Positions 47,128 through 52,407 of a DNA stretch of 64,000 nucleotides are shown piece by piece. A program made the position numbers and the translations under genes. Each line of letters starts with the position of its first letter. Position 1 is the first letter of the stretch. Source of the DNA: Holdemania massiliensis AP2 (lineage in GTDB: Bacteria > Bacillota_I > Bacilli_A > Erysipelotrichales > Erysipelotrichaceae). The stretch spans positions 121,136-185,135 of the forward strand of contig NZ_HE998567.1 in the NCBI RefSeq assembly GCF_000327285.1, written 5' to 3'. Under the pieces are notes generated by a model, which worked only from the letters and a program-made list of their open reading frames with translations, did no database searches and was not told the origin of the DNA.

Positions 47128-47670
47128 ATGATGAAGAGAAAACGGCAGCGAAAGTTAAGCTTAGGATTCTTCCTGATTGTTCTGTGTGTAATCCTGACTG
47201 GCTGTTCTTCAGTAAGTTATCATTGGTACACGGAGCCGGATCGTTCAGTCAAGTTCAGTGTGAAAGCGGGGAAAGTTCAGCGGCTGCTCATTATTACGAA
47301 TGTGAGCCAGCTGGAATCCATGAAGCTGAATGAAGAAAAAAACTGGTTGGAAGCCATGAACATTCGAGATTATTTTGACATTCAGCAGTATCCAAAAGAC
47401 TTCTTCTTGGTTCATTATACAAGCCCGGGTCAAGGCGGAGTCGTATTCTATAATTTTAATTTTGCAGTGCCTGAGTATGATTTGGAAAATGAAAATGTTG
47501 CCGCGATACTGGATCACTTTGGATTAACGGAGGCTTTAGATCCTCAAACCCATACCATCGTCAAGGAGGCTCTGATTTCAGCCCAGACATTTCCTTATCA
47601 TGACCTGTTTGAAAACGGGGATTATCAACGTTTGAAAACACCGAATTGGTATGAAGAACGCTGGAAGTAA
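47128..47670 (+). CDS. Small lipoprotein, function unknown
   Basis: 180 residues. Basic N-terminus (MMKRKRQRKLSLGFFL), hydrophobic core and lipobox LTGC with Cys near 26, so it is exported and lipidated. The mature part is hydrophilic with aromatic residues and no motif I recognise. GAAGGAG precedes the start (two consecutive ATGs). It follows the GNAT gene by 13 bases and ends with a strong terminator, so the two may share a transcript. Confidence 0.72.
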   Translation: MMKRKRQRKLSLGFFLIVLCVILTGCSSVSYHWYTEPDRSVKFSVKAGKVQRLLIITNVSQLESMKLNEEKNWLEAMNIRDYFDIQQYPKDFFLVHYTSPGQGGVVFYNFNFAVPEYDLENENVAAILDHFGLTEALDPQTHTIVKEALISAQTFPYHDLFENGDYQRLKTPNWYEERWK

Positions 47671-47773: not shown

Positions 47774-47821
47774 TTTAAATGACTACAAAGTGTAGTATAA
47801 TAATTGACTACACAATGTAAT
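47774..47821 (+). promoter_or_regulatory. blaI promoter with two BlaI-type operators
   Basis: TTTAAA (47774-47779), 16-base spacer and consensus TATAAT (47796-47801). Two copies of ACTACA-N3-TGTART flank and overlap it: 47782-47796 (perfect palindrome, in the spacer) and 47807-47821 (over the transcription start). They match the TACA...TGTA half-site style of BlaI/MecI/CopY operators. Confidence 0.8.
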
Positions 47822-47839: not shown

Positions 47840-48220
47840 ATGGAATTGATGTCAGATTCCGAAAAGGAAATTATGAAGTTGATTTGGGATCATGGCGGGG
47901 TGATCACGATCAGCGAATTGCTGGATCAGATTGATCAAACTGGAAAGGACTGGAAGCGGACAACCGTCAGAACCTTTATTTCCAGATTGATTGACAAGGG
48001 GATGCTGATCAGTCAGAAAGAAGGCCGGGGAGCCTTATACATCGCCCAGGTCAGTGAAGCAGAATATCTGAAAGTCCAGTCAGTTCAGTTTGTGAATCAG
48101 GTGTTCGGAGGTAATGTCAGCACTTTGCTGACCTCTTTGTTTGGGCAGCAGTGTCTGGATAAAAAAGAAGTGGAAGAATTGGAGAAATTCTGGGAAGAAG
48201 GGAAGGGAAAATTGAAATGA
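47840..48220 (+). CDS. blaI: BlaI/MecI/CopY-family transcriptional repressor
   Basis: 126 residues. N-terminal winged helix (MELMSDSEKEIMKLIWDHGG; KRTTVRTFISRLIDKGML) and a C-terminal dimerisation tail typical of the family. Overlaps the M56 gene by ATGA, as blaI-blaR1 type pairs do. Two matching operators are in its own promoter, so it is self-repressed. In the classical system the M56 partner triggers its cleavage on a signal. The symbol marks the family; the regulated system here need not be beta-lactam resistance, since no beta-lactamase is in the window. Confidence 0.92.
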   Translation: MELMSDSEKEIMKLIWDHGGVITISELLDQIDQTGKDWKRTTVRTFISRLIDKGMLISQKEGRGALYIAQVSEAEYLKVQSVQFVNQVFGGNVSTLLTSLFGQQCLDKKEVEELEKFWEEGKGKLK

Positions 48221-50799
48221 ATACGGTACTGATCGGTTTTCTTTCTGTTTCCATCTCTGCAGTATGCATGGCGGGTATTGTCTTGATCCTGGAAAAACTA
48301 TTAAAAAATCATCTCAGTTTCCGCTTTCGGTATGGATTATGGCTGGTTATCATTCTGCGACTGTTAATTCCAGTTTCTCCCGTTTCCGGTCTGATGGGAA
48401 CGCTGTTTACCGCTGAAACCTGGAAAGGGCAGCCGCAGCCGTTCGTCGCTCAGCCGGAAACTCATCGGGAGGAATGGCGTGAGCCTGCTGAAACTATATT
48501 CCCGCAGATTGACAATGAGCCGCTGCCAGACTTGTCATCAACGTCAGAATCCCTTTCAACCCAAACTTCCTGGCATTTTCAGACGCCTGCCTGGCTTGAT
48601 GATTTAGTTCAGGCTGCCTGGGTGTTGTGGCTCAGCATCGCGGTTGTCTTAATGGTGCGGCGAATGACGAGTTATCAGGGATTTCTGCGGTTTATTCGCG
48701 CCGGCAGCTTTCCAGCTTCTAATCCCAAAACTTTGCAGATTCTTGACGAAGTACGTCAGGAAAAAGGTATCCGCCGGACTATTCCCATCTCGATCAATAA
48801 ATTAGCTGTTTCGCCAATGCTGCCGGGGGTTGTCCATCCGCAGATTATTCTGACGAGCGAAGAATGCGGTGAAGAGGAAATGCGGATGATTCTGCGGCAT
48901 GAACTGACGCATTATCAGCGTGGGGATATCTTTACTAAATGGCTTGTTCAGCTGGCTGTTTGCCTGCATTGGTTTAACCCGCTTGTCCGTCTGATCGGCA
49001 AGCATATGGAAAGCCTGTGTGAACTGGCCTGTGATGAACAAGTCCTAAAGCCGCTTTCAGCACAGGAGAAACGGTGTTATGGAGATACCTTGATCCATTC
49101 CCTGAAGGACAAGGGAACCTATGGGGATCTGATCGTTTCAATTACGTTAAATGAGAATCTGAGCTTATTGAAAGAAAGGTTAAGTGCGATTATGAATGAG
49201 AAAAAATCGACGGCGTCCCGAACGCTTATTTCGATGGCAGCCGGCGCTGTGCTGTTTGCCAGCGGAATTTTCTGCGGATCAGCGATCAGCTGGAAGGCGC
49301 CTGCCCCCTCTGCTGCCCCGGCGGCAACAACGACAACATCAACCAGCAATCAAAGAACTTTCTATTTTTCCGGAAGCGTTTATACACAAGGCTATATCGT
49401 CACCTTGAACTGGGCCGGGGCAGAGAATACCGAGAAAAATCGGGCTTATCAAGATTCCTTAGTCAGCGTGGCCTTTGATGAAAGCATGAAATCGGTGATG
49501 GAAAATGAGGAACAGATGGAAGCTGTGCGGCAGGCTGTGACTGAGCAGCATGCCCGTTTGGTTCGCAGCAACAGTACCTTAGCTTCCAATACACCGCTGC
49601 TGACATCCATCGAAGGGCCTTACAGTGAATCGGCAGAGGAGCTGGCCGCGCGTTTTCATAAAGAAAATAAAATGGCGCAGTTCCGCGCAGTTGCCGCAAA
49701 ACTGGAGGCTGAATCGGCTGTGAAGATGGCGCGGACTTTCTACGCTTCTAAAGAAATGGACTACTTTGCCGTTCTGGCCGATTCCTTATCGGAAGAAGAA
49801 GTCATTGAATTTTGCACACAGGCCTATCAGAATCAAATTGAGGATGCTTTTGATCTGCTGATACAAAAACTGCCGCAGGATCAGATTCAGACCCTGGCTC
49901 AGCAAGCCTACGAGGATGAACGGATTCAATATTATGAAATGGCGATCTATTCGCTGCCTGTTCAGCAGCGGGCGGATTGGGCTGAGAAAGCCTATACCGA
50001 TGCCCGTCTTGATTATTTTGAAGAAGCTGCTTATGATCTGACAACGGCGCAGCTGGGGGAATGGGCGGATCGAATTTATGCGGACAGTCAGCTGGAATTC
50101 TTTGAGATCATCGTGCGCCGGCTGACTTCACAGCAGCTGCAGAGCTTGGCTGAAAGAGCCTATGCGGATAATCGTCCCGACTATTTCAGAGAATTATACT
50201 ATGATTTATCCAAGGAGAGCATCGAAAAATATGCACAGCGCGTCATTGACGATCAGCGGATTCAGGACTATCTGTTTATCTTTGATGAAGATCTGCCTGA
50301 GGCATTAATGAATACCCTGGCTATTCAGGCTTATGAAGAAAAACAAAATGGTTTATTTGATCGCATCAATTGGAAAATTTCAACCGAAACAGCCAATGAA
50401 CTGCTTAAACGAGCATATCAAGATCATCGCATGGAGATTCTGTACCGCATGTCCTCTTATGCCAGTGCTGAGAATTTAAAGACGCTCATAGAACAAGCCT
50501 TTAATGATAACCGAACAGATGTTTTCATGAACCTCTGCGATGATCTGTCAAGTCAGCAGAAGGCCGAGTATGCTGTGCGGGCGTATGATAATCAAAACAT
50601 AGAAATCATGTCCAATCTCGTTTACGATTTGTCCCATGATCAGGTTCTGCCGCTGGCTCAAAAAGCCTATGACGATCAGCGAATTCAGTATTTTGAAATG
50701 ATCGTCTATGAATTAAACAGCGGTGATATTGCGAAATTCAAAGCTCAGGCCAAGCAAGACGGCCGGGATGAATTCTATTATCTGCTTGAAAATTACTAA
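48217..50799 (+). CDS. M56 (BlaR1-family) membrane metalloprotease sensor with tandem 28-residue-repeat ectodomain
   Basis: 860 residues. Membrane helices at about 5-27, 38-55 and 128-148; zinc protease domain with HELTHYQRGDIF at about 228; a fourth helix at about 335-352. A Pro/Ala/Thr-rich linker follows, then an extracellular region. From about 474 to the end run roughly fourteen repeats of 28 residues with the pattern LAQxAYxDxRIxYFExxxYDL and a variable 6-7 residue tail (for example LAQQAYEDERIQYYEMAIYS near 570, LAQKAYDDQRIQYFEMIVYE near 813). They look like paired helices forming a solenoid. No penicillin-binding SxxK/SxN/KTG motifs are present, unlike BlaR1/MecR1. Coupled by ATGA to blaI, so it should relay an unknown extracellular signal to that repressor. 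Confidence 0.85.
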   Translation: MNTVLIGFLSVSISAVCMAGIVLILEKLLKNHLSFRFRYGLWLVIILRLLIPVSPVSGLMGTLFTAETWKGQPQPFVAQPETHREEWREPAETIFPQIDNEPLPDLSSTSESLSTQTSWHFQTPAWLDDLVQAAWVLWLSIAVVLMVRRMTSYQGFLRFIRAGSFPASNPKTLQILDEVRQEKGIRRTIPISINKLAVSPMLPGVVHPQIILTSEECGEEEMRMILRHELTHYQRGDIFTKWLVQLAVCLHWFNPLVRLIGKHMESLCELACDEQVLKPLSAQEKRCYGDTLIHSLKDKGTYGDLIVSITLNENLSLLKERLSAIMNEKKSTASRTLISMAAGAVLFASGIFCGSAISWKAPAPSAAPAATTTTSTSNQRTFYFSGSVYTQGYIVTLNWAGAENTEKNRAYQDSLVSVAFDESMKSVMENEEQMEAVRQAVTEQHARLVRSNSTLASNTPLLTSIEGPYSESAEELAARFHKENKMAQFRAVAAKLEAESAVKMARTFYASKEMDYFAVLADSLSEEEVIEFCTQAYQNQIEDAFDLLIQKLPQDQIQTLAQQAYEDERIQYYEMAIYSLPVQQRADWAEKAYTDARLDYFEEAAYDLTTAQLGEWADRIYADSQLEFFEIIVRRLTSQQLQSLAERAYADNRPDYFRELYYDLSKESIEKYAQRVIDDQRIQDYLFIFDEDLPEALMNTLAIQAYEEKQNGLFDRINWKISTETANELLKRAYQDHRMEILYRMSSYASAENLKTLIEQAFNDNRTDVFMNLCDDLSSQQKAEYAVRAYDNQNIEIMSNLVYDLSHDQVLPLAQKAYDDQRIQYFEMIVYELNSGDIAKFKAQAKQDGRDEFYYLLENY
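49640..50799 (+). repeat. Tandem coding repeats (84-base units) in the M56 sensor gene
   Basis: About fourteen in-frame units, each 84 bases coding 28 residues, with the AY-[DE]-x-R-[IL]-xYF core conserved best in units 4, 5, 7 and 13. The DNA units are diverged, so this is old protein-level duplication and not a recent satellite. Confidence 0.8.
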
Positions 50800-50989: not shown

Positions 50990-51079
50990 CGCATAGGGCT
51001 TTTAAGCGGATCCAGAGAGATCGCAAGGCTGAACTACACTTAGGGGAAAGTCCTTTTGCAAAAATCAAAAGGGCTTTTT
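50990..51079 (+). promoter_or_regulatory. PyrR-type transcription attenuator
   Basis: The leader contains GGATCCAGAGAG (about 51008-51019) followed by ATCGCAAGG, closely matching the PyrR-binding loop (UCCAGAGAG...GCAAGG) of Firmicutes pyr genes. A terminator follows: AAAGTCCTTTTG (51047-51058) pairs over 12 bp with CAAAAGGGCTTT (51066-51077), then T residues. PyrR with UMP would favour termination, so the permease is made when pyrimidines are low. pyrR itself is not in the window. Confidence 0.85.
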
Positions 51080-51102
51080 ATTAAGCCCGGAAAGGGGTAT
51101 TT

Positions 51103-52407
51103 ATGTCACAGCGAGTAGAAATGATCCTCGACGTCAACGAAAAACCGCAGCCGGCACAATGGATTTTGCTGAGCTTCCAGCATGTCTTTGCGATGTTTGG
51201 CGCCACCATCCTGGTTCCGGTATTAACCGGCTTCCCGATTTCCGTTGCTTTGTTTGCTTCCGGAATCGGTACGATTATTTACAGCTGCATCACCCGTTTT
51301 AAAGTTCCGGTTTACTTAGGTTCTTCTTTTGCTTACATCAGTGCTGTTCAGATTGCCGTTGCCGCGATGAGCGGAGATGTCAGCGCGGCACAGACGGGTT
51401 TGATTTTAATTGGTCTGGTCTATGTCATTGTATCCATCATCGTTCGCTTTATCGGCAAGGATTGGATTGATAAGCTGCTTCCGCCGATCGTCATCGGTCC
51501 GATGATTGCGGTTATCGGCCTGGGCTTAGCTGCCAACGCCGTCAGCAATGCTGGCTTTGTTGCCGGGGGAAGCTGGAAAGTGATGCTGACCGCCGTCTTC
51601 ACGTTCATTCTTACAGCGCTCATCTCCACCAAAGCCAAAGGCTTCTTCAAAATCATTCCGTTTCTGTGCGGCATCCTGGGCGGTTATTTATTTGCCTTAG
51701 CGTTAGGCATTGTGGATTTTACACCCGTTATGGAAGTCATCGAATCCCGTCAGTTTCTGTCGCTGCCGGAGTTCATCCTGCCGTTTGCGGTGCCAGGATT
51801 CAAGCAGTATCATCTGTATTTCGGACCGGAAACCTTCGCGATTCTGCCGGTAGCGCTGGTTACGATTTCTGAGCATATCGGCGATCATACAGTCTTAGGC
51901 AAGATCTGCGGCCGCAACTTTTTAAAGGAGCCGGGGCTGGATAAGACGCTGATGGGCGACGGCATTGCGACTTCGATTTCCGCGCTGTTAGGGGGTCCGG
52001 CAAATACAACGTATGGTGAAAACACCGGAGTGATCGGAATGACTAAGGTTTCCTCTGTCTATGTTACCGTCGGTGCCGCCTGCATCGCGATTGTCTTAAG
52101 CTGCGTACCGATTGTTTCAGCGTTTATCTCTACTATTCCAAGTGCAGTATTGGGTGGTATGTCGATTATTCTCTACGGTGTCATTGCTTCCAATGGTCTG
52201 CGGGTTCTGATTGATAATCAGGTTGATTTTGGCCAGCAGCGTAATCTGATCATTGCCTCGGCGATGCTGGTCATCGGCTTAGGCGGTGCGGTTCTGCCGT
52301 TAGGCAAGCTGGTCACGCTGTCCGGTACAGCCTTGTCAGCCAGCGTCGGGATTGTCCTGAACTTAATCCTGCCGCGTTCAAAACAGACGGAAGACAGCAA
52401 AAATTAA
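51103..52407 (+). CDS. uraA: Uracil permease (NCS2 family)
   Basis: Nucleobase:cation symporter-2 membrane protein, 434 residues with about 14 membrane segments. MSQRVEMILDVNEKPQPAQW leads into the first helices (SFQHVFAMFGATILVPVLTG). The substrate-site region reads VTISEHIGDHTVLG, and GGPANTTYGENTGVIGMTKV is the uracil-permease form of the NCS2 signature. The PyrR attenuator upstream supports uracil over xanthine as substrate. Could equally be named pyrP. Confidence 0.93.
   Translation: MSQRVEMILDVNEKPQPAQWILLSFQHVFAMFGATILVPVLTGFPISVALFASGIGTIIYSCITRFKVPVYLGSSFAYISAVQIAVAAMSGDVSAAQTGLILIGLVYVIVSIIVRFIGKDWIDKLLPPIVIGPMIAVIGLGLAANAVSNAGFVAGGSWKVMLTAVFTFILTALISTKAKGFFKIIPFLCGILGGYLFALALGIVDFTPVMEVIESRQFLSLPEFILPFAVPGFKQYHLYFGPETFAILPVALVTISEHIGDHTVLGKICGRNFLKEPGLDKTLMGDGIATSISALLGGPANTTYGENTGVIGMTKVSSVYVTVGAACIAIVLSCVPIVSAFISTIPSAVLGGMSIILYGVIASNGLRVLIDNQVDFGQQRNLIIASAMLVIGLGGAVLPLGKLVTLSGTALSASVGIVLNLILPRSKQTEDSKN

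Follow-up and report, generated by a model that had tools for sequence, protein, structure and literature searches.

In this study, we found that a two-gene operon of Holdemania massiliensis AP2 combines a BlaI/MecI-family repressor and an M56 zinc protease with an ectodomain predicted to be a 14-repeat alpha-solenoid. We propose, with a probability of about 0.62, that the operon encodes a self-regulating switch of the BlaI/BlaR1 type whose sensor has been replaced, the solenoid being the putative input that binds a protein or peptide. BlaI/M56 pairs are usually annotated as regulators of beta-lactam resistance. This locus is a clean case in which the protease and the repressor were kept and the sensor was exchanged. 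Its features are listed in Table 1, with positions counted in the whole stretch of 64,000 nucleotides that was analyzed (the window).

Table 1. Features of the blaI-blaR-like operon, by position in the window.
Feature	Position	Strand	Description
Promoter, sigma-70 type	47774..47801	+	TTTAAA-16-TATAAT; overlaps operator 1; candidate from a consensus scan only
Operator 1	47782..47796		ACTACAAAGTGTAGT (ACTACA-N3-TGTAGT); perfect palindrome between the -35 and -10 boxes; exact match
Operator 2	47807..47821		ACTACACAATGTAAT (ACTACA-N3-TGTAAT); 25 bp downstream of operator 1
blaI	47840..48220	+	126 aa; BlaI/MecI winged-helix repressor; PF03965, E=7.2e-30
blaR-like gene	48217-50799	+	860 aa; overlaps blaI by 4 nt
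Protease half, residues 1-360	48217..49296	+	Four TM segments and a cytoplasmic M56 zinc protease
Juxtamembrane ectodomain segment, residues 380-475 (approx.)	49354..49641	+	Strand-strand-helix-helix-strand, predicted
Alpha-solenoid ectodomain, residues 476-860	49642..50796	+	14 repeats of 28 aa, two helices each, predicted

Protease half, repressor and operators

The first-pass annotation had recognized the classical BlaR1-BlaI design in an M56 protein, an overlapping blaI and two operators. The profile matches and the operators that we found agree with this. In a Pfam scan, Peptidase_M56 (PF05569) covered residues 8-325 of the M56 protein (E=3.1e-52, 178 bits, cut-off 31), and the product of blaI matched its own family (Table 1). 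Hydropathy peaks lie at residues 1-31, 33-64, 126-152 and 334-359, the last being TM4. The zinc-protease motif consists of H228-E229-x-x-H232, E269 and D273. In the alignment with BlaR1 (PDB 8exp), all of the residues compared were kept: H201/H205 correspond to H228/H232, D210 to D237, E242 to E269, D246 to D273, Y261 to Y288, and R294 to R321. The catalytic and supporting roles of these residues were described in the cryo-EM paper of BlaR1 (PMC9834060). The protein therefore has the HExxH and ExxxD zinc-site motifs and also the Asp, Tyr and Arg that play supporting roles in BlaR1. Among solved structures, the only significant relatives of the M56 protein were those of BlaR1, and these were aligned over the protease half only.

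The self-cleavage loop of BlaR1, ILSHSF-N, pairs with IVSITL-N in the alignment with 8exp. By this alignment, S283-F284 in the loop that joins helices 8 and 9 would correspond to T310-L311, with a hydrophobic residue (L311) at P1'. The blaI product was compared with solved MecI (1okr, E=1.2e-12) and was also aligned with solved BlaI. At the place of the scissile Asn-Phe of the staphylococcal proteins it has Ser99-Leu100, and the same pair is found in all three Holdemania species that carry the locus. Phe at P1' of BlaI was reported to be almost invariant (PMC9834060). Since the residues at the aligned place also vary among the other BlaI paralogues in the H. massiliensis genome, Ser-Leu instead of Asn-Phe does not exclude membership in the BlaI/MecI family. 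The Asn-Phe scissile bond is not a defining feature of that family as a whole. Cleavage of BlaI at the predicted S99-L100 bond is likely, not certain. Co-variation of Leu at P1' between BlaI and the protease loop was also considered and was dropped; paralogue P4 has Leu in BlaI only.

Both operators are kept in position and spacing in the two other species, one site with a single change, and the promoter sequence is kept save a few base changes. A scan of the genome for the operator had been suggested in the first-pass annotation. The pattern scan recovered the pair at its own promoter and no second pair elsewhere in the three Holdemania genomes. Sites with one mismatch numbered 12 in the H. 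massiliensis genome, against 33 for the reversed control pattern, and those looked at were coding, stood beside unrelated regulators or were not common to the species. Because there is no other operator pair and the one-mismatch sites are not above the control, the regulon as known is the operon itself. A comparable case is BlaI of C. thermocellum: its regulon is its own operon alone, and two pairs of inverted repeats lie at the promoter (PMC8457756). In H. filiformis, one operator-like site with one mismatch lies just 5' of another BlaI-like gene of 125 aa (G002:C35:18000-21800, near 1814), and no link to an M56 gene was seen within that stretch.

The operon contains blaI and the M56 gene and nothing else. 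The downstream permease gene at 51103 has its own promoter-like site. It is preceded by a leader at 50995-51083 that resembles a PyrR-binding site (Rfam RF00515, 36.6 bits, below the cut-off of 54; E=0.022), also visible in both related species. Owing to this promoter-like site and the sub-threshold leader, the permease is probably regulated separately. Directly 5' of blaI, a lipoprotein of a family without a name is encoded at 47128-47670 in the three species, with 58-60% identity. It may be a surface partner, but a terminator-like hairpin separates it from the operators.

With the sole operator pair found at its own promoter, the M56 protein could act as both receptor and effector. The solenoid would then serve mainly as a surface binding or scaffold protein, its amount set by the BlaI loop, and the output would be the M56 protein itself. 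The composition of the operon and the separate promoter and PyrR-type leader of the downstream gene agree with this, and four M56 paralogues of the genome that end in M23 would fit the idea of direct effectors. However, the pattern scan could miss genes that BlaI regulates through weaker or diverged operators, and the analogy with M23 is indirect. We regard this reading as unlikely.

The ectodomain

No penicillin-sensor family was found in the M56 protein by Pfam and NCBIfam scans, and a fold search of the ectodomain found no penicillin-sensor fold, the model being one of helical repeats instead. The NCBIfam BlaR1 model covered residues 9-344 only (126.6 bits against a cut-off of 400). The repeat region therefore does not match a described BlaR sensor domain, a possibility that the first-pass annotation had raised against its own reading, and a hidden penicillin sensor was rejected. 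The same annotation had stated that SxxK, SxN and KTG motifs do not occur. SxN and KTG are indeed absent throughout the ectodomain, but SxxK tetrads are present at S500, S668 and S779, which we count as chance occurrences.

The BLOSUM62 self-score of residues 470-860 had means of 1.06 at lag 28, 0.60 at lag 56 and 0.36 at lag 84, whereas no lag in any of 100 shuffles scored above -0.20. Setting the register by hand gave 13 full repeats and a shortened last one over residues 476-860, with repeat 8 longer by one residue. Periodicity and register thus agree with the earlier estimate of roughly fourteen repeats at about 474-860. Position 6 of the repeat (tyrosine-type) and positions 1, 5, 13 and 14 belong to those that vary least from species to species. 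Each repeat is closer to the repeat at the same position in the other species than to its own neighbors, and no tandem repeat remains at the DNA level across the array. These results indicate that the array is old and its repeat number fixed.

An AlphaFold model of residues 363-860, built from three sequences, had a mean pLDDT of 83.9 and showed one helix pair per 28 residues; over most of the repeats, pLDDT exceeded 90. The helical look that had been noted for the repeats is in line with this model, which predicts with high confidence that they fold as an alpha-solenoid. PDB fold searches with the solenoid model returned generic helical repeats and no specific relative, so the fold names no ligand. 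None of the Pfam repeat families HEAT/ARM, TPR, Pumilio and LRV reached its cut-off on the repeats.

We also considered whether the repeats are distant kin of the helical repeats in the intracellular N-domain of MgtE (PF03448) and likewise detect an ion or partner domain. Run against genomes of the class, the repeat profile gave one weak match (E=2.5e-4), to a gene that is MgtE-like by eye, and an artificial four-fold consensus repeat matched MgtE_N with E=2.9e-4, below the family cut-off. The natural protein had no MgtE_N match, however, and MgtE_N is cytoplasmic. Profile-profile comparison with hhalign gave no support (probabilities of 10.5% and 2.6%), and this kinship was rejected as weak; we consider it very improbable.

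Between TM4 and the repeats lies a juxtamembrane segment that the earlier annotation had overlooked. Its pLDDT in the AlphaFold models is about 45-80, a moderate confidence, and in a PDB search no fold matched it (best hit E=0.5). In the pair H. filiformis and Holdemania sp. Marseille-P2844, dN/dS was 0.014 in the juxtamembrane segment, 0.086 in the protease and 0.133 in the repeats. The strongest conservation in the whole protein is therefore in this segment, which is well placed to relay a signal to TM4.

Conservation, distribution and paralogues

The gene is intact in H. filiformis DSM 12042 and in Holdemania sp. Marseille-P2844, with 72% identity and 14 repeats, and the overlapping blaI of these species has 86.5% identity. 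The neighbors are common to the three species: a GGDEF protein and the lipoprotein on the 5' side, and a uracil/xanthine-type permease and an RsmE-like gene on the 3' side, the GGDEF and RsmE-like labels being our presumptive reading by eye from the sequence. A fourth Holdemania genome (2.0 Mb) has no M56 gene. As judged from the coding sequences, the whole ectodomain is under purifying selection.

A search of the class for the same architecture had been proposed. It returned the three Holdemania species; outside the genus, the 395 class genomes searched yielded nothing related to the ectodomain. One marginal match, to an unrelated gene, was obtained in 392 genomes of the phylum, and none in plasmids, phages and IMG/VR viral contigs. 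A scan of named genomes with peptide patterns, which reach close relatives only, gave two Holdemania loci only. Among the genomes searched, the solenoid on an M56 protein was seen only in Holdemania, with Clostridia proper left out of the sensitive search.

Such a narrow distribution might be expected of a degenerate or idle locus, be it a decayed BlaR1 relative with a functionless expansion of its repeats or an artificial joining of two genes in the assembly. However, the fusion, its length, the number of repeats and the neighbors are equal in three independent genomes. Selection is purifying across the ectodomain, the protease residues are intact and the operators are conserved. We therefore give an idle locus hardly any weight. 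An assembly error joining the repeats to the protease, which the first-pass annotation had named as a caveat, is excluded by the three genomes, and a frameshifted fusion was likewise rejected, since the same fusion is whole in two independent genomes besides that of H. massiliensis.

The H. massiliensis genome has nine M56 genes (ten profile matches, two of which are pieces of one gene). The ectodomains of the eight others are of roughly 150-590 residues; none has a penicillin sensor and none has internal repeats. Half of them contain M23 (one just below the Pfam cut-off), and the other four have no Pfam match above the cut-off. The four M56-M23 proteins are encoded in two tandem or near-tandem pairs (G000:C1:940000-949000 and G000:C3:177000-193000), one of them behind a blaI. 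M56 genes linked to blaI elsewhere encode proteins of 346 (Listeria), 420 (C. difficile) and 1310 residues (Pusillibacter plasmid), with another ectodomain or almost none. The gene on the Pusillibacter faecalis plasmid (2980-6912 of the record) adjoins blaI, and its ectodomain of ~970 residues has no Pfam match and no internal repeat. None of the nine M56 genes of H. massiliensis has a recognizable penicillin sensor. Together with the exchanged sensor of the locus studied here, this argues that the BlaI/M56 pathway serves gut Bacillota as a general means of transmembrane input.

The M23 peptidoglycan-peptidase domains on these proteins and the origin of the family in BlaR1 would also suit an indirect sensor of cell-wall or beta-lactam stress. 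The solenoid would then bind a penicillin-binding or wall-synthesis protein and report its state, the input being wall damage. However, no beta-lactamase or penicillin-binding-protein gene is present in the operon, and no operator pair was found elsewhere; we consider this reading improbable.

Most of the five other blaI genes of the genome have tandem palindromic operators of their own, with differing sequences; examples are GACTATTGTAGTAGTC-like sites, found twice, and ATTACA-N3-TGTAAT-like sites, also found twice. These distinct sequences suggest that the circuits are largely insulated. Cross-talk with the ATTACA-N3-TGTAAT circuit, which differs from the studied operator by one base per half-site, is possible.

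Proposed switch and known systems

In the switch that we propose, BlaI dimers would occupy both tandem operators at the blaI-blaR promoter and hold the operon low. We infer that the M56 protein crosses the membrane four times. Its zinc protease would lie on the cytoplasmic side, and the juxtamembrane segment would face outward together with the solenoid. The solenoid would bind a ligand. Alpha-solenoids in general bind proteins or peptides, and it is this fold class that points to a protein or peptide, from the envelope or from the cell's surroundings, as the most likely ligand. Binding may cause a movement that the juxtamembrane segment and TM4 relay from the solenoid to the protease. The activated protease would then cleave BlaI, and expression of the operon would rise. 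This direction of signaling, like the topology and the cleavage, is modeled on BlaR1; the sequence itself shows the gene structure, the protease residues, the operators, the predicted fold and the conservation. Points against the proposal are Ser-Leu at the aligned cleavage position of BlaI, the lack of further operator pairs or of one-mismatch sites above the control in the genome scans, and the generic nature of the solenoid's fold matches. Because the solenoid stands in place of the penicillin-binding part, the BlaI switch is probably wired to a different cell-surface signal.

A more specific version is that of a one-component switch restricted to the genus, in which the external 14-repeat alpha-solenoid recognizes a protein or peptide and triggers cleavage of BlaI, the receptor possibly being the sole regulated product. 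We hold this version tentatively, at somewhat less than even odds. If the proposal is true, the locus would provide a modular repeat-protein input to the BlaI/M56 pathway that works without a penicillin sensor, and a repeat-protein sensor would be an attractive base for engineering new inputs.

The closest described systems are BlaR1/BlaI and MecR1/MecI of staphylococci (PDB 8exp; PMC9834060). These share with the Holdemania locus an M56 zinc protease that has four TM segments and identical catalytic residues, the overlapping gene for a BlaI/MecI-family repressor and the palindromic TACA-TGTA operators at the operon promoter. In contrast to BlaR1 and MecR1, the Holdemania protein has a juxtamembrane segment and a 14-repeat solenoid in place of the sensor that resembles a class-D beta-lactamase. 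No beta-lactamase or PBP target gene was found, and P1' of BlaI is Leu, not Phe. The solenoid has the helix-pair build in common with other two-helix solenoids (ARM/HEAT, Pumilio, LRV 1lrv and the designed toroids 7rdr), but no sequence match to these families was found, and its structural scores are at the level of any helical repeat.

In the PetR/PetP system of cyanobacteria, a BlaI-like regulator and a BlaR1-like protease respond to copper, with petE/petJ as targets (PMC7896320). The likeness lies in the control of a BlaI-family regulator by a BlaR1-family protease whose input is not a beta-lactam. The difference is the copper input, and a solenoid is not described in PMC7896320. The M56-M23 architecture was mentioned in PMC9662197. 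Such proteins also join an M56 half to a different C-terminal part, one set of them beside blaI; however, their ectodomain is a peptidase M23 without repeats and has no sequence similarity to that of the solenoid protein. The first-pass annotation had spoken of a new input class for the BlaI switch. The solenoid is new, but the class was overclaimed, given eight other M56 proteins without a penicillin sensor and the copper-responsive PetR/PetP pair. Replacement of the penicillin sensor is common on M56 proteins; the tandem-repeat solenoid is the new element.
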